Shown: in pieces, positions 7,470 to 55,266 of the stretch
Position numbering within the stretch: the first letter of the stretch is position 1
How the letters are laid out: each line of letters starts with the position of its first letter
NCBI RefSeq assembly: GCF_002305875.1
Contig: NZ_CP022098.1
Coordinates: 4,836,001-4,900,000 of the forward strand
Reading direction: 5' to 3'
Source of the DNA: Cystobacter fuscus
Lineage (GTDB): Bacteria; Myxococcota; Myxococcia; Myxococcales; Myxococcaceae
Length of the DNA stretch: 64,000 nt
The notes under the pieces: generated by a model
Seen by the model: the letters and a program-made list of their open reading frames with translations, nothing else
The model's database searches: none
Told to the model about the DNA's origin: nothing
Program-made: the position numbers and the translations under genes

Positions 7470-9731
7470 GTGGAAGCCAAACGATACCTGCAGGAAGTGG
7501 GCGCCCAGGTGTCAGACGACTTCGTCAAGAACCGCTCCATCCTCTCCTTCGAGGAGTACCTCACGCTCTTCATGGCGGAGCCTCGAGGCCAGGCGCGCAA
7601 TGCCGCCCAGTACTTGCGCGACGTGATGGACTCCTTCGGCACGGAGACCGTGACGCACCCCACCGGGAAGATGCGCCGCTTCAAGGTCTTCGACGTGCCC
7701 GCCAGCGACCGGGACGGCCGGGTCGCGGGCCAGGAGGAGGTGCAGAACGCCGTCTACCGGATGCTCGGCAACTTCACGCGCGCCGGCCGCATCAACAAGC
7801 TCATCATGATGCACGGCCCCAACGGCAGCGCGAAGTCCACCTTCGTCAACGCCCTCAAGGCCGGCATGGAGCACTACTCGCGCCAGTCCGAGGGGGCGCT
7901 CTACCACATCAGCTGGATCTTCCCCTCGGAGAAGCTCGTCAAGGGCTCCATCGGCTTTGGCGGCGAGCGCATTCCCGCCACCAGCGGGGACCTGTCCACC
8001 TACGCGCACCTGGACGCCGACTCCATCGACGTGCGCATCCCGTGCGAGCTGAGGGATCCCCCCCTCTTCGCCATTCCCCCCTCCGAGCGCCAGCGCCTGC
8101 TGGAGGGCGCGCTCAAGAAGAAGGGCGTGGGCACGGGAGACGGGCAGGGCGAGGGCGACTTCGTCCTCTCCGACTTCATCCTGCACGGAGAGCTGTGCCA
8201 CAAGTGCCGCAGCATCTACACGGCGCTCCTGGCCAACTACAAGGGCGACTACATGCAGGTGATGCGCCACGTGCGCGTCGAGCGCTTCTACATCTCGCGC
8301 CGCTACCAGGAGGGCACGGTGACGGTGGAGCCGCAGATGAGCGTGGACGCCATGTACCAGCAGGTGTCCGCGGACCGGGCCAAGCTGCTCAACATGCCGC
8401 CCGCGCTGCACAACGTGGCGCTCTTCGAGCCCCAGGGCGCGCTCGTGCACGCCAACCGCGGCCTCATCGAGTACTCGGACCTGCTCAAGCGCCCGCTGGA
8501 GGCCTTCAAGTACCTCCTGGGCTTCAGCGAGACGGCGCAGGTGCCGCTCGAGCACTTCGTGCTGCAGCTCGACGAGGTGCTCCTCGCCTCGTCCAACGAG
8601 AAGCACCTGGGCGCCTTCAAGGAGCTGCCCGACTTCGCCTCGTTCAAGGGCCGCATCGAGCTGGTGCGCGTGCCCTACCTGCGCCGCTACAAGGCGGAGC
8701 AGCAGGTGTACGACGCGCAGATCACCCCCACCACCGTGGGCAAGCACGTGGCCCCGCATGCCACCGCGGTGGCCGCCATGTGGGCCGTGCTCACGCGCCT
8801 GAAGAAGCCCATCCCCGACCGCTACCCGCCCGGGGTCAAGGAGCTGGTGGATCAGATCACCCCGGTGGAGAAGATGTTCCTGTACGAGGACGGGGTGGTG
8901 CCCGACAGGCTCAGCCTCGCGCACGGCAAGGAGCTGCGAAAGCTGCGCGCGGACATGTACGAGGAGTCCGACGCCTACCCCAACTACGAGGGCCGCAGCG
9001 GCGCGAGCGCCCGGGAGATCAAGACGGCGCTGTTCAACGCCGCGCAGCACCCGGACTACAAGTGCCTGCACGCGCTCGCGGTGTTCGAGGAGCTGGAGGC
9101 CATCTGCAAGGACAAGAGCGTCTACGAGTTCCTCCTGCAGGAGGTGGTGGACGGCTACCATGACCACGAGGAGTTCGTGCGCGCGGTGCAGGCCACCTAC
9201 CTGGACAAGGTGGACGAGGAGGTGCGCGAGTCCATGGGCCTCGTCTCCGAGGGGCAGTACCGCGAGCTCGTCGAGCGCTACGTCTACAACGTGAGCCACT
9301 GGGTGAAGGGCGAGAAGATCCGCAACCGCCACACCGGTGCCATGGAGCGCGTGGACGAGCAGCGCATGGCGGAGATGGAGGCCATCGTCATGCCCAAGGG
9401 CGAGGATCCGGGCGAGTTCCGCCGGGGGCTCATCTCGCAGATCGGCGCGCACAAGCTCGACCATCCGGACGACGCGGAGATGGACTACCCGCGCATCTTC
9501 CCGGACCTGTTCCGCCGCCTGCGCGACCACTACTTCGAGGAGCGCAAGCGCGTGCTGCGCCGCAACAAGGAGAACGTCCTCAAGTACCTCTCCGAGGACC
9601 GCGGCACCCTGTCCGCGCGCGAGCAGGCCCAGGTGGAGAGCACCCTGAAGACGATGAGCGAGCGCTACGGCTACTGCGAGCACTGCGCCAAGGACGCCAT
9701 CCTCTTCCTCATGAAGAAGCGCTACGGCTGA
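7470..9731 (+). CDS. prkA: PrkA-family AAA+ serine protein kinase/ATPase
   Basis: A 753-residue PrkA/YeaG homologue. The AAA+ part begins after about 80 residues with Walker A GPNGSAKST at 116-124, and the protein is co-linear with PrkA up to a C-terminal helical kinase-like domain. PrkA proteins respond to starvation and sporulation; reported activities include Ser phosphorylation and, more recently, proteolysis in Bacillus, so the biochemical label is uncertain. Two CxxC pairs, Cys243/Cys246 and Cys736/Cys739, could bind metal. The usual neighbours, a YeaH/YhbH (DUF444) gene and a SpoVR gene, are absent here. The start is a GTG with an excellent AGGAGG site 7 bases upstream. The chain is longer than the roughly 640 residues of enterobacterial YeaG, mostly in internal insertions. 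Confidence 0.93.
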   Translation: MEAKRYLQEVGAQVSDDFVKNRSILSFEEYLTLFMAEPRGQARNAAQYLRDVMDSFGTETVTHPTGKMRRFKVFDVPASDRDGRVAGQEEVQNAVYRMLGNFTRAGRINKLIMMHGPNGSAKSTFVNALKAGMEHYSRQSEGALYHISWIFPSEKLVKGSIGFGGERIPATSGDLSTYAHLDADSIDVRIPCELRDPPLFAIPPSERQRLLEGALKKKGVGTGDGQGEGDFVLSDFILHGELCHKCRSIYTALLANYKGDYMQVMRHVRVERFYISRRYQEGTVTVEPQMSVDAMYQQVSADRAKLLNMPPALHNVALFEPQGALVHANRGLIEYSDLLKRPLEAFKYLLGFSETAQVPLEHFVLQLDEVLLASSNEKHLGAFKELPDFASFKGRIELVRVPYLRRYKAEQQVYDAQITPTTVGKHVAPHATAVAAMWAVLTRLKKPIPDRYPPGVKELVDQITPVEKMFLYEDGVVPDRLSLAHGKELRKLRADMYEESDAYPNYEGRSGASAREIKTALFNAAQHPDYKCLHALAVFEELEAICKDKSVYEFLLQEVVDGYHDHEEFVRAVQATYLDKVDEEVRESMGLVSEGQYRELVERYVYNVSHWVKGEKIRNRHTGAMERVDEQRMAEMEAIVMPKGEDPGEFRRGLISQIGAHKLDHPDDAEMDYPRIFPDLFRRLRDHYFEERKRVLRRNKENVLKYLSEDRGTLSAREQAQVESTLKTMSERYGYCEHCAKDAILFLMKKRYG

Positions 9732-48861: not shown

Positions 48862-49674
48862 TCAGTCGCCAGCATCGGGGCTGGCGAGGTCCAGCCGCCG
48901 CGAGATGTACCGCGCGGGCGACGTGCCGAACGCCTTTCGAAACATCGTCACGAAGCTGCTCGCGCTTTCGTAGCCCAGGTCGATGGCCACGCTCTGCACG
49001 GAGGCTCCCCGCGTGAGCCATTGCAATGCCAGGATGATGTGAAGTTGCTGGCGCCATCGACCAAAGCTCATGCCGGTCTCGTGAACGAGCAGGCGGTTCA
49101 GCGTTCGCTCGCCAACGCCCATCCGCTTCGCCCATTCCTTCATGGTCGAGCCGTCCGCCGGATGGGCGGTGATCATCTCGACGAGCCGCCGGAGCCGCGC
49201 ATCCGTGGGCATGGGCAGCCGCAGATTCTCCACCCGCGCCGCCGCCAGCTCGTCCAGCAGTACGGCGAACAGCCGGGCCTCCGGCCCGTCGAGTGGATAC
49301 AGTGCTGGCAGCATCGCGGCGCGCAACAGCAGCTCCCGGAGCAGAGGGCTGACCGAAACCGCACAGCATTCCCTGGGCAAGGTGGCGATCGCGTCGGGCT
49401 CCACGAACAGCGCGACCCCCTCGAGAGGTGCCCGGCCCTTGATGTTGTGGTTCGTATTGCCTGGAATCCACAGCGCGGACTGAGGGGGGACGAGCCACAG
49501 GGCGTTTGATGCCTCACACGTCACTTCGCCACGGACGATGAAGAACAGCTGTGCCTTGCGGTGAGTGTGAAAGCCCAGCTCGAGTTCCCCGGTCATCATC
49601 TCCATCCCGACCACCAGGGCGGGTCGGGCGACGTCATCCGGATCGGCATCGGCAGGGAGGGTGAGGTGGGGCAT
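48862..49674 (-). CDS. AraC-family transcriptional regulator
   Basis: A 270-residue regulator with an N-terminal cupin-type sensing domain (GFHTHRKAQLFFIVRGEVTC, LVPPQSALWIPGNTNHNI) and a C-terminal double helix-turn-helix (MGVGERTLNRLLVHETG and IDLGYESASSFVTMFRKAFGTSPARY). It is divergent to the PPOX flavoprotein gene across 133 bp and may control it. Ligand is unknown. Confidence 0.92.
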   Translation of the reverse strand: MPHLTLPADADPDDVARPALVVGMEMMTGELELGFHTHRKAQLFFIVRGEVTCEASNALWLVPPQSALWIPGNTNHNIKGRAPLEGVALFVEPDAIATLPRECCAVSVSPLLRELLLRAAMLPALYPLDGPEARLFAVLLDELAAARVENLRLPMPTDARLRRLVEMITAHPADGSTMKEWAKRMGVGERTLNRLLVHETGMSFGRWRQQLHIILALQWLTRGASVQSVAIDLGYESASSFVTMFRKAFGTSPARYISRRLDLASPDAGD

Positions 49675-49807
49675 TCGGGGTCGATTCTACGTGGTGGCCG
49701 AATCTCGAAACAAGTTGGCCAGGTTGCGCAATGCGGTCAAGCGGAAATCAGGTCAGGTTGAAGGGACAGGGTCACGCCTTTCATCCTCATCAGAAGGAGC
49801 GAACATC

Positions 49808-50830
49808 GTGCGGAGGACGAGCGACTCAATCGCCACGGTTGACGAGCTGGAAGCCTACATCGGCAAGGCGCCAGCGCCGGTGAATCTCAAGGTCATCGAT
49901 CATCTGGACGAAGGCGCGCTGCGCTGGATCGCCGCGTCGCCCCTTGTCTTCGCCGGGTTCGGGGATGGCTCCCGCATCGGTGTCACCCTCGGTGGGGGCC
50001 ACCCCGGTTTCGCTGGGGGCGACGCTCATGAGCTGCGTCTGCCCACCGCGCTGCTCGACGACCCGACGCTGGCCCGGCCAGGCATGGGGTTCGGCTCGCT
50101 GTTCCTGCTCCCCGGCGTTGGCGAGACCCTGCGCGTCAACGGCAGGGTGGCGAAGGTGGACGGGGGCGAGTTCCGCATCACGGTCGAGGAATGCTATGGC
50201 CATTGCGCCAAGGCGCTGATCCGCTCGGACTTCTGGGCTGCTTCGCCTGGCGCGGCCACGCCGCGGGAGGCCGCGGCCTTCCTTTCCGCCAGCCGCTTCA
50301 TGGCGCTGGCGACGATCGACGCGCGGGGACGCGCCGACCTCAGCCCCAAGGGCGATCCAGCTGGCACGATGGCGAGTCTCGAAGATGGCGGGGCCTGGTT
50401 CGCCGATCGTCCGGGAAACCGCCGCGTGGACAGCTTCCGCAACATCATCGCCCAGCCGCATGTCGCCGCCGCGCTCCTGATCCCTGGTTCGACGCACGTC
50501 GCCCATCTATCGGGGGTCGCGCGGCTCACGACCGATGAGGCGGTTCGCGCGCGATTCGTCGTTCAGGGCAAGACGCCCACGCTGGTGACTGGCATCGACG
50601 ACCCGACCATCGATCTGCGCGAGAGCCCCACACTCGTCCGCGCCAATCTCTGGCCAGTCAAAGCGCGTACCGAAGGCATCGATCCGGCAAAGGTGTTCGT
50701 CGCGCACCTCAAGCTGAATAGCGACAAGGGCCTCGGAGCCAGGCTGGCGGGCGCGGTCCTGTCCGTTCCCGGCGTTACCGGCCTTCTGCTGAAGGGCTTG
50801 GAGAAGGACTACAAGACCAACCTCTACTGA
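49808..50830 (+). CDS. pyridoxamine 5'-phosphate oxidase-like FMN protein
   Basis: A 340-residue protein. The second half is a PPOX-type FMN-binding barrel (FLSASRFMALATIDARGRADLSPKGDPAG, then GGAWFADRPGNRRVDSFRNIIAQPHVAAALLIPG), as in the MSMEG_1061-like flavoproteins. The first half is a smaller domain around YGHCAKALIRSDFW. The family uses FMN or F420 in redox steps on unknown substrates. The start GTG at 49808 has AAGGAG eight bases before. It faces tauD tail to tail. Confidence 0.82.
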   Translation: MRRTSDSIATVDELEAYIGKAPAPVNLKVIDHLDEGALRWIAASPLVFAGFGDGSRIGVTLGGGHPGFAGGDAHELRLPTALLDDPTLARPGMGFGSLFLLPGVGETLRVNGRVAKVDGGEFRITVEECYGHCAKALIRSDFWAASPGAATPREAAAFLSASRFMALATIDARGRADLSPKGDPAGTMASLEDGGAWFADRPGNRRVDSFRNIIAQPHVAAALLIPGSTHVAHLSGVARLTTDEAVRARFVVQGKTPTLVTGIDDPTIDLRESPTLVRANLWPVKARTEGIDPAKVFVAHLKLNSDKGLGARLAGAVLSVPGVTGLLLKGLEKDYKTNLY

Positions 50831-50856: not shown

Positions 50857-51690
50857 TCAGAACGGCTTGTCACCGAGGATGGTGGCGCGGTGCATCACCC
50901 GCCGCTGTGGGCGGTAGTCGTCGACCGCGTAGTGCTGGGTGATGCGGTTGTCCCAGAAGGCCACGTCGTTCTCTTGCCAGCGCCAGCGGAGGGAGAACTC
51001 CGGGCGGGTGCTGTGGGCGAAGAGGAAGCGCAGAAGGGTATCGCTCTCCGCCGGCTCCAGTTCATTGATGCGGGTGGTGAAGCCATCGTTGACGAACAAT
51101 CCCTTGCGTCCCGTCACCGGGTGGGTGCGCACCACCGGGTGGGTGCGCGGTGGGTTCTTGCGTTTGGCTTCCTCGTACCGGGCGAGGTCTTCCTGGGTGG
51201 TGCCGAAGCGCTCCAGGGGAAAGGAGCGGGTCAGGTCGTGGAGGGCGGTGAGGCCGTCGAGCAGTTTCTGCATCGGCTTCGACAAGGCGTCGAAGGCCGC
51301 GCTGCTGCTGGCCCACAGGGTATCGCCCCCACAGGGGGGTAGTTTCTTGGCGGCGAGCACGGCGCCGAGGGCTGGGGTTTCCAGGAAGGTGACGTCGGTA
51401 TGCCAGATGGCGTTGTCACGCACGTCGGTGACGGCGGTGTCGAGCACCAGCACTTGTGGTTGCTCGGGGATGTTCGGGTAGATGGGGTGGATGTGCAGCT
51501 CTCCGAAGCGCGCGGCGAAGGCGGCCTGCTGTCGGGGCGTCAGCGGCTGGTCGCGGAAGAACAGCACCTGGTGTTGCAGCAGGGCTTTCTCGATGGAATC
51601 ACGGTGGGAGTCGCTCAGGGGCTCGCGCAGGTCGATGCCTTCAATGACCGCACCCAGGGCGGGATTCAAGGGGGTGATCTTCAGGGACAT
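50857..51690 (-). CDS. tauD: taurine dioxygenase
   Basis: TauD is an Fe(II)/2-oxoglutarate-dependent dioxygenase that releases sulfite from taurine. The 277-residue product keeps the facial triad His-x-Asp in IWHTDVTF and the distal His in RRVMHRATI, with the 2-oxoglutarate-binding Arg after it. Start [17 protein letters not shown] is typical. It is the last gene of the tauABCD operon, 22 bp after tauC. The ATG at 51690 is preferred because the fold starts there. Confidence 0.93.
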
Positions 51691-51712
51691 CGTCTCTACC
51701 TCTTCTGAAGGT

Positions 51713-52546
51713 TCAGTGATTCTGCCCATGCCAGGGCACCAGCCTGCGTTGCAGGGCGCGAAGGCCGAGCTCCAGGGCGAAGGCGATCAGGGCGATGATC
51801 AGGATGCCGAGGATCACCACGTCCGTGACCAGGAACTGCGCCGCCGACTGCACCATGAAGCCGAGGCCACTGGTGGCGGCGATCAGCTCGGAGGCCACCA
51901 GGGTCGACCAACCCACACCGAGGCCGATGCGCACGCTGGTGAGGATGTCCGGCAGGGCGCTGGGCAGGATGACATGGCGGATCAACTGTGCCTGGGTGGC
52001 GCCCAGGGATTGCGCGGCACGCAGCCGGGTCGGATCGACATGGCGCACGCCGGTGGCGGTGGCGATGGCGATGGGAGCGAAGATGGCCAGGAAGATCAGC
52101 AGCACCTTGGACAGCTCGCCAATGCCGCACCAGATGACAATCAGCGGCAGGTAGGCCAGCGGGGGGATCGGCCGGTAGAACTCGATCAACGGGTCGAAGA
52201 TGCCTCGGGCCACGCGGCTGCGACCCATGGCGATGCCCAGTGGAATCGCGGTCAGTACGGCGGCGAGCAGGGCCACGCCGATGCGTCCCAGGCTGGCCCC
52301 CAGGTGCTGCCAGAGGCTGGCGTCCATGTAGCCCAGGGTCAGCAGCTCCCAGCCCTTCCGCGCCACGGCCTGGGGGCCCGGCAGGAACAGTGGCTCGATC
52401 AGCCCGGCGGTGGTCACCGCCCACCACAGGAACAGCAGGGTGGAGACAGTCAGGACGCTGATGACCGTGAGGCTCAGCGGGCGGCGCGGAGGCCGGACCG
52501 TGGGCTCGGGGGTGTTCGCCACGGCTGGAAGCTCGAGGCTGCTCAT
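51713..52546 (-). CDS. tauC: taurine ABC transporter permease
   Basis: A 277-residue inner-membrane permease of the SsuC/TauC type with about six helices, ending with the EAA-type cytoplasmic loop ([23 protein letters not shown]) that contacts TauB. First helix at about 28-48 ([17 protein letters not shown]). The ATG overlaps the tauB stop by 4 bp (ATGA), so translation is coupled. Substrate assignment rests on the complete operon. Confidence 0.9.
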
Positions 52547-53325
52547 GCCGTTCTCCTCTTCCGTTCGGCGAAGACCTGGGCCAGGACGTGCTCGCGGGTT
52601 TCGATGAAGCGCGGGTCGGATTTGATCGCCCGCGCGCTCTCTCCGGCGGCATGGCGCTGGCCGAAGTCGAGCTCGAGGCGTTCGCTGATCCGTCCCGGAT
52701 GGGGCGACAGGAGGATCAGCTCGGTGGCGAGGAACACCGCCTCCTCGATGTCGTGGGTGATCAGGAACACCGGCTTGGACGTGCGCTTCCATACCTGGAG
52801 CAGGAGTTCCTGCATTTGTTCTCGGGTGAAGGCATCCAGCGCGCCGAAGGGTTCATCCATCAGCAGGACGCGCGGGTCCGCGGCGAGGGCGCGGGCGATG
52901 CCGACGCGCTGTTTCTGGCCACCGGAGAGCTGCCAGATGCGCCGCGTGTCGAAACCGGCCAGGTCGACCAGGGCGAGCAGTTCGCGGGCCCGGGCCTCGC
53001 GCTGGTCACGCGGCATGCCGGCCAGTTCGAGGCCGAAGGCGACGTTGGTCAGCACGTCCTGCCAGGGCAGCAGGGCGTCGTCCTGGAAGACCACGCCGCG
53101 CTCGGCGTTGGGGCCGCGCACCGGGACGCCGTCGAGGGTGATGCGTCCACCGCTGGGTGGCACGAAGCCAGCGATCAGGTTGAGCAACGTGGTCTTTCCG
53201 CTGCCGGACGGGCCGAGTGCGACCAGCAACTGCCGTGGCCCGAGGCTGAGGGAGATGTCCGTCAGGACCGGACCGGCCGTGCCGGGGTAGCGTGCGCTGA
53301 TGCGCTCCAGTTGGAGTAGGGCCAT
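52543..53325 (-). CDS. tauB: taurine ABC transporter ATP-binding protein
   Basis: A 260-residue ATPase with Walker [14 protein letters not shown]-loop, signature [15 protein letters not shown] and Walker [15 protein letters not shown], followed by the H-loop TH. It energises uptake through TauC. It follows tauA by 33 bp and overlaps tauC by 4 bp. The length and motifs are normal for TauB/SsuB. Confidence 0.94.
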
Positions 53326-53358
53326 CGTCGTCTCGGGGAGGGGAGGGGCGGAACAGCG

Positions 53359-54339
53359 TCATTCCCTCAAGTACTTCGCGCTGACGTAGGGCGAGTAGTC
53401 GGGCCGTACCGTGTCGGTCTTGCCTTGCTCCTTGAGGAACAGGGCGGTGGCGGCAATGGCCCTGGCGGTCTCGCCTCCGAGCAGCCGTTCCTGGGCACTG
53501 GCATCCGGGAAGGTGGCGCCGGCCAGCAGTTCCGGCACGTCCTCCGGGTTCGCGCCGGTCAGCCTGGCGATCTTCCGCACCGGCTCGGAGTGGGCGGTCC
53601 AGGCCTCCTTGTGGGCGGCGTAGTCGGCGAAGGCTTCCAGACTGACCCTGGCGAAACGGGCGAGCACCTCGGGATGTTTTTCCGCGAAGTCCTTGCGCGC
53701 GACCCAGACCTCGAAGGTCGGCGCGCCCCAGGCGCCCACTTCGGCGGCGGTTGTGAGCACCTTGCCACTCCGCTTGATTTCGCCGAGGGCCGGAGACCAG
53801 ACGAAAGCACCGTCGATATCACCGCGCTTCCAGGCCGCGGCGATCTCGGTGGGGTTGAGGTTGATCACCTTCACCCGGGTCGCGTCCAGCTTCCAGTGCT
53901 TGAGCGCGCCGAGCAGGCTGTAGTGGGAGGTGGAGACGAACGGGGTGGCGATGGTCTTGCCCACCAGATCCTGGGGGGTGTTGATGTTGCTGCCATGGCG
54001 GACCACCAGGGCCTCGGCGGAGTTGATCTGCGCGGAGACCAGGAAGGTGACGATCGGCAGGCCCCGGGTGGCGGCAGCGGCCAGCGGGCTGGATCCGAGG
54101 TTGCCGAGCTGCACGGCGCCGGAGGCCATGGCGGTGATCACCTCCGCGCCGCTGTTGAAACGCCGCCAGTCGAGCTTCTGGCCGATGGCCTTCTCGTAGG
54201 TGCCGTCGGCTTGCGGCACCTTGGTCGGGTCGATGCCCGTCTGGTATCCGATGACGATGTCAGCCGCCTGGGCGGACAGTGCCAGACAGCCCCCAACCAG
54301 GACCGCCAGCAGCCGATGGGGAAACAGGGATGCGCTCAT
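53359..54339 (-). CDS. tauA: taurine-binding periplasmic protein
   Basis: A 326-residue substrate-binding protein with signal peptide (LLAVLVGGCLALSAQA). The mature start IVIGYQTGIDPTKVPQADGTYEKAIG and RRFNSGAEVITAMASGAVQLGNLGSSPLA fits TauA; later QINSAEALVVR and WVARKDFAEKHPEVL. It delivers taurine to TauBC. The ribosome site GAGGAG (54353-54348), 8 bases before the ATG, lies inside the stem of a 13-bp inverted repeat, so expression may depend on its folding or on a regulator. This is the first gene of the operon tauABCD. Confidence 0.93.
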   Translation of the reverse strand: MSASLFPHRLLAVLVGGCLALSAQAADIVIGYQTGIDPTKVPQADGTYEKAIGQKLDWRRFNSGAEVITAMASGAVQLGNLGSSPLAAAATRGLPIVTFLVSAQINSAEALVVRHGSNINTPQDLVGKTIATPFVSTSHYSLLGALKHWKLDATRVKVINLNPTEIAAAWKRGDIDGAFVWSPALGEIKRSGKVLTTAAEVGAWGAPTFEVWVARKDFAEKHPEVLARFARVSLEAFADYAAHKEAWTAHSEPVRKIARLTGANPEDVPELLAGATFPDASAQERLLGGETARAIAATALFLKEQGKTDTVRPDYSPYVSAKYLRE

Positions 54340-54343
54340 GCGC

Positions 54344-54388
54344 GACGCTCCTCGAACACGGAGTAATCAGCGTGTTCGAGGAGTCGTC
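54344..54388 (-). promoter_or_regulatory. inverted repeat that encloses the tauA ribosome site
   Basis: CTCCTCGAACACG (54348-54360) and CGTGTTCGAGGAG (54371-54383) are perfect 13-bp arms with a 10-base loop; GACG/CGTC can extend the stem past a one-base bulge (54344-54388). In the leader RNA the GAGGAG of tauA would be base-paired. It may also be a DNA operator. Confidence 0.6.
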
Positions 54389-54411
54389 TGGAGATAAATA
54401 ACTTTTTCGCA

Positions 54412-54425
54412 TGAGCATATGCTCA
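54412..54425. promoter_or_regulatory. 14-bp palindrome upstream of the tau operon
   Basis: TGAGCATATGCTCA is a perfect palindrome, 73 bp before the tauA start and beside the AT-rich AGATAAATAA. It overlaps the place of a -35 box if TTTATC is the -10. Probable regulator site; it could also serve the divergent gene at 54508. Confidence 0.5.
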
Positions 54426-54507
54426 CCGGGTTACAGCGCCGGTGACAACCGCACCATGGAGACGGAACGTCTCGCGGCCTGGAGCCGGGTGAGTATCCTG
54501 CCCGTCC

Positions 54508-55266
54508 ATGGACCTGCGAATCGTGCTCGGCCTCGTGCTGATGCTGGCGTCACCAGCGTGGAGCCAGCCGTCGGCCTCCACTGCCCCGGACTTCGAGGGC
54601 CGCATGGCGGCCACGGCGCGTGCCTACGAGAACCTCGACTACGAACATGCGCTCCAGGAGCTCGAAGGCGCCAGCCGCCTCGCGCGCGACGATGGAGAGC
54701 GGGCCCGGGTGGCCATCTACCGGGGCCTCGTGCTCGGGGACTTGAGGCGGCGCCAGGCGTCCCGGGCTGCCTTCCGCGCCGGCCTGATGCTGCGGCCCAA
54801 TGCGAGCCTCCCGGTGAAGGTGTCCCCCAAGGTGGCGAGCGACTTCGAGGACGTGCGCCGTGAAGTGCTGGCACTCAACCCGAGCCCACCGTCGGACGCG
54901 CCGCGCGCGGTGCCGGACGCGAAGCTCGCGCAGACGCCAGCCTCCGGGCTCGTCCCCCCTGGCGGAGCGGAAGCGGAGGTGCGCGCCTCGCGCTCCACGC
55001 CGGTGCTCCCACTGGCGCTGCTGGGGGCGGGCGCGGTGCTCGGCGGCGTGGGCGGCTACTTCGGCCTGCAGTCACGCGGCAACGTGAGCAACGCGCGCGA
55101 GGCCGCCTTCTACAGCGACCGGCGGGCTCACCTGGACAGCGCGCGGGGACAGGCGCTCGTGGCCAACGTCCTCCTGGGCGCGGCCGTCACCGCCGCCGCC
55201 GGGGCGGCCGTCACCTGGTTCCTCGCGGACAGGACGCCGTCGTCGCGGGTGGAGGTGTCGCCATGA
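54508..55266 (+). CDS. exported protein with TPR-like N-terminal half and a membrane segment
   Basis: A 252-residue protein with a signal peptide (VLGLVLMLASPAWS). The N-terminal half has TPR-type helices (AYENLDYEHALQELEGASRLARDDGERARVAIYRGLVLGDL), then a Pro-rich linker and two hydrophobic segments (PLALLGAGAVLGGVGGYFGL and VLLGAAVTAAAGAAVTWFL). The pattern recurs in myxobacterial genomes next to MopE-like genes. Its stop overlaps the start of the following gene by 4 bp (ATGA), so the pair works together. Function unknown. Confidence 0.75.
   Translation: MDLRIVLGLVLMLASPAWSQPSASTAPDFEGRMAATARAYENLDYEHALQELEGASRLARDDGERARVAIYRGLVLGDLRRRQASRAAFRAGLMLRPNASLPVKVSPKVASDFEDVRREVLALNPSPPSDAPRAVPDAKLAQTPASGLVPPGGAEAEVRASRSTPVLPLALLGAGAVLGGVGGYFGLQSRGNVSNAREAAFYSDRRAHLDSARGQALVANVLLGAAVTAAAGAAVTWFLADRTPSSRVEVSP

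Follow-up and report, generated by a model that had tools for sequence, protein, structure and literature searches.

A 29-bp promoter element in front of tauABCD of Cystobacter fuscus and its counterpart at Pseudomonas tauA

In the stretch of Cystobacter fuscus DNA analysed here (the window; 64,000 nucleotides, positions 4,836,001 to 4,900,000 of contig NZ_CP022098.1), the ribosome binding site of tauA lies inside one arm of a perfect 13-bp inverted repeat, and a 14-bp palindrome stands a short distance upstream. The locus thus raises the question of which feature controls the taurine operon, a folding RNA leader, a DNA operator or a site of another kind. The original prediction had favoured a folding switch or an operator at the repeat, with a second regulator site at the palindrome.

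The tauABCD operon and its inverted repeat

The assignment of the operon was confirmed, a complete tauABCD being recovered on the minus strand with four family models, all above their curated cut-offs. It comprises tauA, encoding the taurine-binding protein (53359-54339; TIGR01729, 419 bits for a cut-off of 304.25), tauB for the ATP-binding subunit (52543-53325; PRK11248), tauC for the permease (51713-52792 for the ORF as listed; PRK10160) and tauD for taurine dioxygenase (50857-51729; PRK09553). The true start of tauC is probably inside the listed ORF, as the profile match begins at residue 101. At E <= 1e-80, tauA was found in 3/96 genomes of the family and 3/145 of the order, namely the window's own genome (G000) and two congeners (G032 and G033), all of one genus; G034 had no tauA match. 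The tauA leader matched 3/195 genomes of the phylum (E <= 0.001). In most genomes, the top 15-23 candidates were scored in the tauA search and in the CysB search described below. Outside the genus, the best 80 of 525 tauA loci (L007-L086) all belonged to Pseudomonas, with 71-79% identity; being the best 80, they are no fair sample. Taken together, the narrow distribution of tauA and its Pseudomonas relatives suggest that the operon was transferred.

G032 and G033 carry the tau genes at the same place as the window, the upstream flank in G032 differing by an insertion or deletion. The AraC-type and PPOX-type genes near tauD (48862-50830) are unlikely to be tau regulators, as they have little aligned counterpart in G033 (almost none for 49035-50695) and, in G032, other ORFs lie between them and tauD. 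The window's AraC-type gene is itself not adjacent to tauD.

In front of tauA, the arms CTCCTCGAACACG (54383-54371, minus strand) and CGTGTTCGAGGAG (54360-54348, minus strand) enclose a 10-nt loop, CTGATTACTC (54361-54370, minus strand). The ribosome binding site GAGGAG (54348-54353, minus strand) sits 8 nt before the ATG at 54339 and is the same in the three species. The letters and coordinates originally given for the repeat and GAGGAG were correct, as were those of the hexamer TTTATC (54398-54393) and of the palindrome (54425-54412). This is the sole perfect inverted repeat of at least 13 bp (loop 3-20) in the window, with 0.06 expected per shuffled window (12 of 200 shuffles contained any). 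It folds at -36.7 kcal/mol (z -5.85), and its exact sequence occurs once in the 12.35-Mb genome. Across 464 kb of the genome (the window and 20 stretches of 20 kb), six perfect repeats of at least 13 bp were detected, and only the one at tauA lay within 10 nt of a candidate start in a rough gene call (282 genes). Three of the remaining five were at predicted gene ends, as terminators would be, and one was between two divergent starts.

Between 53300 and 55300, the single Rfam match with E up to 5 was to an intron model (53308-53414; 15.6 bits, gathering 49) and no relevant family was found; two Pseudomonas loci (L031, L072) and the G032 locus (L096) gave 0 matches at gathering. A scan of 54250-54560 returned no sigma-70-like promoter and no terminator-like site, and the overlapping open frames across the repeat showed no third-position bias (hand count, three leaders).

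A promoter element shared with Pseudomonas and a CysB-like gene

Of the features in this region, the one that appears functional is a promoter element found also at the taurine operons of Pseudomonas. It is the 29-bp sequence CATATGCTCATGCGAAAAAGTTATTTATC (54393-54421, minus strand), a putative CysB-type LysR activator site by homology to the Pseudomonas tauA element. The view of this stretch as the control region of the operon, probably with a regulator site just upstream of the repeat, is upheld. The sequence CATAAGCTAATTCCTAAATGGTATTTATT, used as seed, or a variant of it is common upstream of Pseudomonas tauA: the best match within 2.6 kb upstream reached 20-29 of 29 bases at 79/80 loci and 18 at L070, identities that are circular inasmuch as the seed was itself taken from among the 80. 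Among 1600 shuffled upstream regions, 20 was reached once and 19 seven times; L070 (18/29) is within this shuffled range, yet it is among the 42 elements of the matrix described below. Downstream of tauA, the best match was at most 17 at 78/80 loci, and at the two exceptions (L071 and L074) the element recurs in front of another tauA. These second copies lie at L071:3925-3953 and L074:6105-6133, and the tauA genes that adjoin them are more distant (58% like the window's). At 7/80 loci, the element was about 1.2 kb before the matched tauA, with a second tauA between them in six; none was found between them at L056.

The window element aligns without gaps to the seed (21/29 bases) and to the second copies of L071 and L074 (24/29), which are the closest among the elements in the best 80 of 525 loci. 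A matrix built from the 42 distinct Pseudomonas elements, containing no sequence of this genus, scored the window site at 31.8 bits on a background of 68% G+C (67.7% in the window), the next site in the 464 kb scoring -0.7. On uniform and A+T-rich backgrounds, the window site scored 22.9 and 20.6 respectively, compared to -6.8 for the next site on both, and 100 column-permuted matrices gave at most -0.8. The G032 element scored 21.4 bits with the Pseudomonas matrix. A degenerate pattern (up to 3 mismatches) matched at one place each in G000, G032 and G033, at tauA, with no match in G034 and none for the reversed control; as the window's site was known when the pattern was drawn up, the matrix gives the less biased test. 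With the element at one place per genome in the three tau genomes, a wider regulon finds no support.

The same gap-free element, taken here as an activator site, therefore stands upstream of the same gene in the window and in the Pseudomonas loci. The two differ past the element: across 19 representative leaders from Pseudomonas, positions 6-22 nt beyond it are conserved as TTTTTTAGATCGATTAG, whereas the window lacks this stretch and has the inverted repeat there instead.

At 12/80 Pseudomonas tauA loci (L015, L031, L032, L056, L059, L065, L067, L068, L069, L070, L072 and L077), the motif CCGGACC.CCGGAC was observed just past the promoter; in most of them an inverted version resembling GTCC.GTGGTCCG comes after it, as judged by eye, and the arrangement may be a leader hairpin or a repeat site. 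L031 and L072, for which Rfam gave no match at gathering, are the two of these loci that were tested.

With E. coli CysB as query, G000, G032 and G033 each gave one strong match (identity 41-42%, with E from 5.6e-67 to 1.0e-66), and the best matches in G034 had 29% identity. At E <= 1e-45, a CysB-like LysR gene was present in 3/96 family genomes, the same three that carry tau. The G000 protein is identical to E. coli CysB at 124/296 aligned positions (42%, residues 1-295), and it scores below the NCBIfam cut-offs, with 283.4 of 436 bits for CysB and 373.8 of 482 for the best model (NF009325). According to PMC4501297, the CysB proteins of Xanthomonas citri and E. coli share 39% identity, and E. 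coli tauABCD is under the control of CysB and Cbl. Compared by its genes, the present locus resembles the E. coli system in the operon itself and in the presence of a CysB-like regulator elsewhere in the genome; it differs in that this regulator falls below the CysB cut-off. The CysB-like gene, at 8028391-8029287 of G000 contig C1, lies 3.1 Mb from tau. No sulfur genes were recognised beside it in the ORF list, and the one A+T-rich stretch near it (in L123) is not the 29-bp element. Concerning published sites, the passages of PMC4254191 on the subject gave no binding site, and those of PMC9023270 on P. aeruginosa name CysB gene sets, with no motif. Open-licence literature on taurine in myxobacteria or Cystobacter, on tau regulators and on CysB sites contained nothing on this promoter among the matches listed.

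Promoter geometry and the most probable reading

CysB activation sites are described as having their centre 50-60 bp before the start of the transcript, with a consensus called very weak (PMC11329422, in the part dealing with these sites). If the Pseudomonas -10 occupies the bases 11-16 or 19-24 nt beyond the element, transcription there would start 23-31 nt past it; the spacing of CysB sites would give 36-46 nt. Applied to the window, the Pseudomonas spacing would place the start at 54370-54362 and the CysB rule at 54357-54347, positions that fall in the loop, in the 3' arm or one base beyond it. As starts below about 54354 would cut GAGGAG, the likely range is 54370-54354, covering the loop and the loop-proximal half of the 3' arm. 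On both spacings, a candidate weak -10 is ATTACT in the loop (54367-54362), which agrees with TATAAT at 3/6 bases and lies 17 bp after a weak -35, CAGACG (3/6); with the -10 there, the centre of the element would be at about -52. The hexamer TTTATC (54398-54393), originally proposed as the -10, finds no support in that role: it forms the end of the 29-bp element, which in Pseudomonas sits upstream of the core promoter. With a start in the loop or the 3' arm, the 5' arm would be absent from the message. Two leaders with such starts fold more weakly (-12.9 and -10.0 kcal/mol), and GAGGAG is still largely paired in both, with the start of the coding region, so that a start of this kind need not leave the ribosome site free.

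We consider it probable that tauABCD has an imported CysB-type promoter, and that one genus acquired operon and activator site together, the source being Pseudomonas-like. A CysB-type LysR activator would bind at 54421-54393 and switch the operon on when sulfur is short. The centre of the element (54407) would then be about 37-60 bp upstream of a start at 54370-54347, giving a short leader without the 5' arm, in which the 13-bp hairpin would be unable to lock the ribosome site and probably does not form. As DNA, the inverted repeat would cover the core promoter, and its presence there would be largely incidental. A sulfur signal would be in line with the 2- to 6-fold increase of the TauA and TauC proteins of P. 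aeruginosa in sulfur starvation reported in the relevant part of PMC12581299. Several points speak against this reading: the conserved Pseudomonas stretch past the element is not kept in the window, the CysB-like protein is below the cut-offs and has no recognised sulfur genes next to it in the ORF list, the element occurs at one place per genome, the genome searches scored the top candidates of most genomes, and a repeat above chance is left as incidental. The repeat, although commoner than chance would have it and invariant in its core among the three species, is read here as incidental or mutational.

The operon is confined to one genus among the relatives searched, and its element can still be read, with 24/29 bases like the closest Pseudomonas copy. 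As the regulator gene has the same narrow distribution, the transfer of an operon with its own control becomes directly testable here. The locus also illustrates that a conspicuous hairpin and palindrome may misdirect the reading of a promoter as long as the conserved element beside them has not been compared with relatives.

Congener leaders and the alternative readings

It is unlikely that the genus swapped the core promoter of the imported operon for the inverted repeat and so placed a second, species-tuned control, either a leader hairpin or a promoter-spanning operator, on top of the inherited activator site. Hairpin and operator were also weighed as explanations in their own right, mainly on the leaders of the three congeners. 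From CATATG to ATG, these leaders align without gaps, with 2/85 differences between G000 and G033 and 9/85 between G000 and G032. The 10-bp core of the stem (20 bases) is identical in the three species, which says little, as the chance of 20 unchanged bases at 9/85 divergence is 0.107. The 5' arm varies at its three outermost bases, which are CTC in G000 and GTA or ATT in the two congeners; their partners stay GAG, so that the perfect 13-bp stem exists in G000 only. As to the leader comparison, then, the shared core stands, but the outer pairs and the palindrome are not kept.

Leader hairpins that hide a ribosome site are familiar from RNA thermometers and riboswitches. An RNA switch of this type would have its start near 54386 and a leader consisting of the hairpin, with translation of tauA off until the stem is opened. 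Its likeness to the known cases is that GAGGAG can pair in a strong stem (13 bp, with the z-score given above, the core identical in three species and 16.9 kcal/mol needed to open GAGGAG in G000), but the pairing is not kept in the congeners and the start proposed above leaves out the 5' arm. Opening costs only 8.6 kcal/mol in G033, where the second GAG of GAGGAG stays free (0.96-1.0 unpaired), and 10.4 kcal/mol in G032, where one base is free. Pairing of the ribosome site is thus not maintained across these three species, the outer changes being on one side only; Rfam gave no relevant match, and a start at 54386 would set the element at -35 to -7, unlike in Pseudomonas. Given these results, the folding switch of the original prediction appears improbable.

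An operator at the repeat, on which a dimeric regulator would block or activate the promoter, appears improbable to a similar degree. The 10-bp core arms are 20 bp apart from centre to centre, about two helical turns, and the core, identical in three species, overlies the presumed core promoter. However, the exact core was found only at tauA in G000, G032 and G033 and was absent from G034. With up to 3 mismatches it occurred at 14 other places in the four genomes and its reversed control at 8, so that any excess is small. The three tau genomes share no regulator gene next to the operon. The TauR (MocR) operons, mainly of proteobacteria, offer a parallel in that taurine uptake genes are placed under a dedicated regulator (PMC5320631, in its account of these operons), but in the 3978 bases of L001 the CTGGACYTAA direct repeats of TauR did not exceed chance (2 matches with up to 2 mismatches, compared to 2.21 expected).

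The palindrome TGAGCATATGCTCA (54412-54425), which had been proposed as a second regulator site, is a chance feature and is not conserved. Nine palindromes of at least 14 bp were counted in the window, compared to 8.84 expected (50 shuffles), and its length is 14, 12 and 6 bp in G000, G033 and G032 respectively (by eye on alignments). It joins the first bases of the 29-bp element to flanking sequence unrelated to it, its left half being beyond an indel junction; the right half and TTTATC are both pieces of the element.

A purely mutational product, in which one arm was copied over the other and an imperfect stem thereby became perfect in this lineage, is very improbable: the stem-perfecting CTC of G000, compared to GTA and ATT in the congeners with a constant 3' arm, would fit it, but the ancestral state is not fixed by three lineages and point changes explain the data equally well.

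Two further observations were made in these genomes. In G032 (L096, about 7745-7945), 185-190 bases directly before the element are absent in G000 and G033; by eye they resemble the decayed end of a VOC-type gene, a likeness that Pfam did not bear out (0 families for the 57-aa frame). Elsewhere in G000, at L110:7623-7670 (contig C1, 7707623-7707670), two predicted divergent starts flank an operator-like inverted repeat of 17 bp in which TTGTACAACC-like letters recur.
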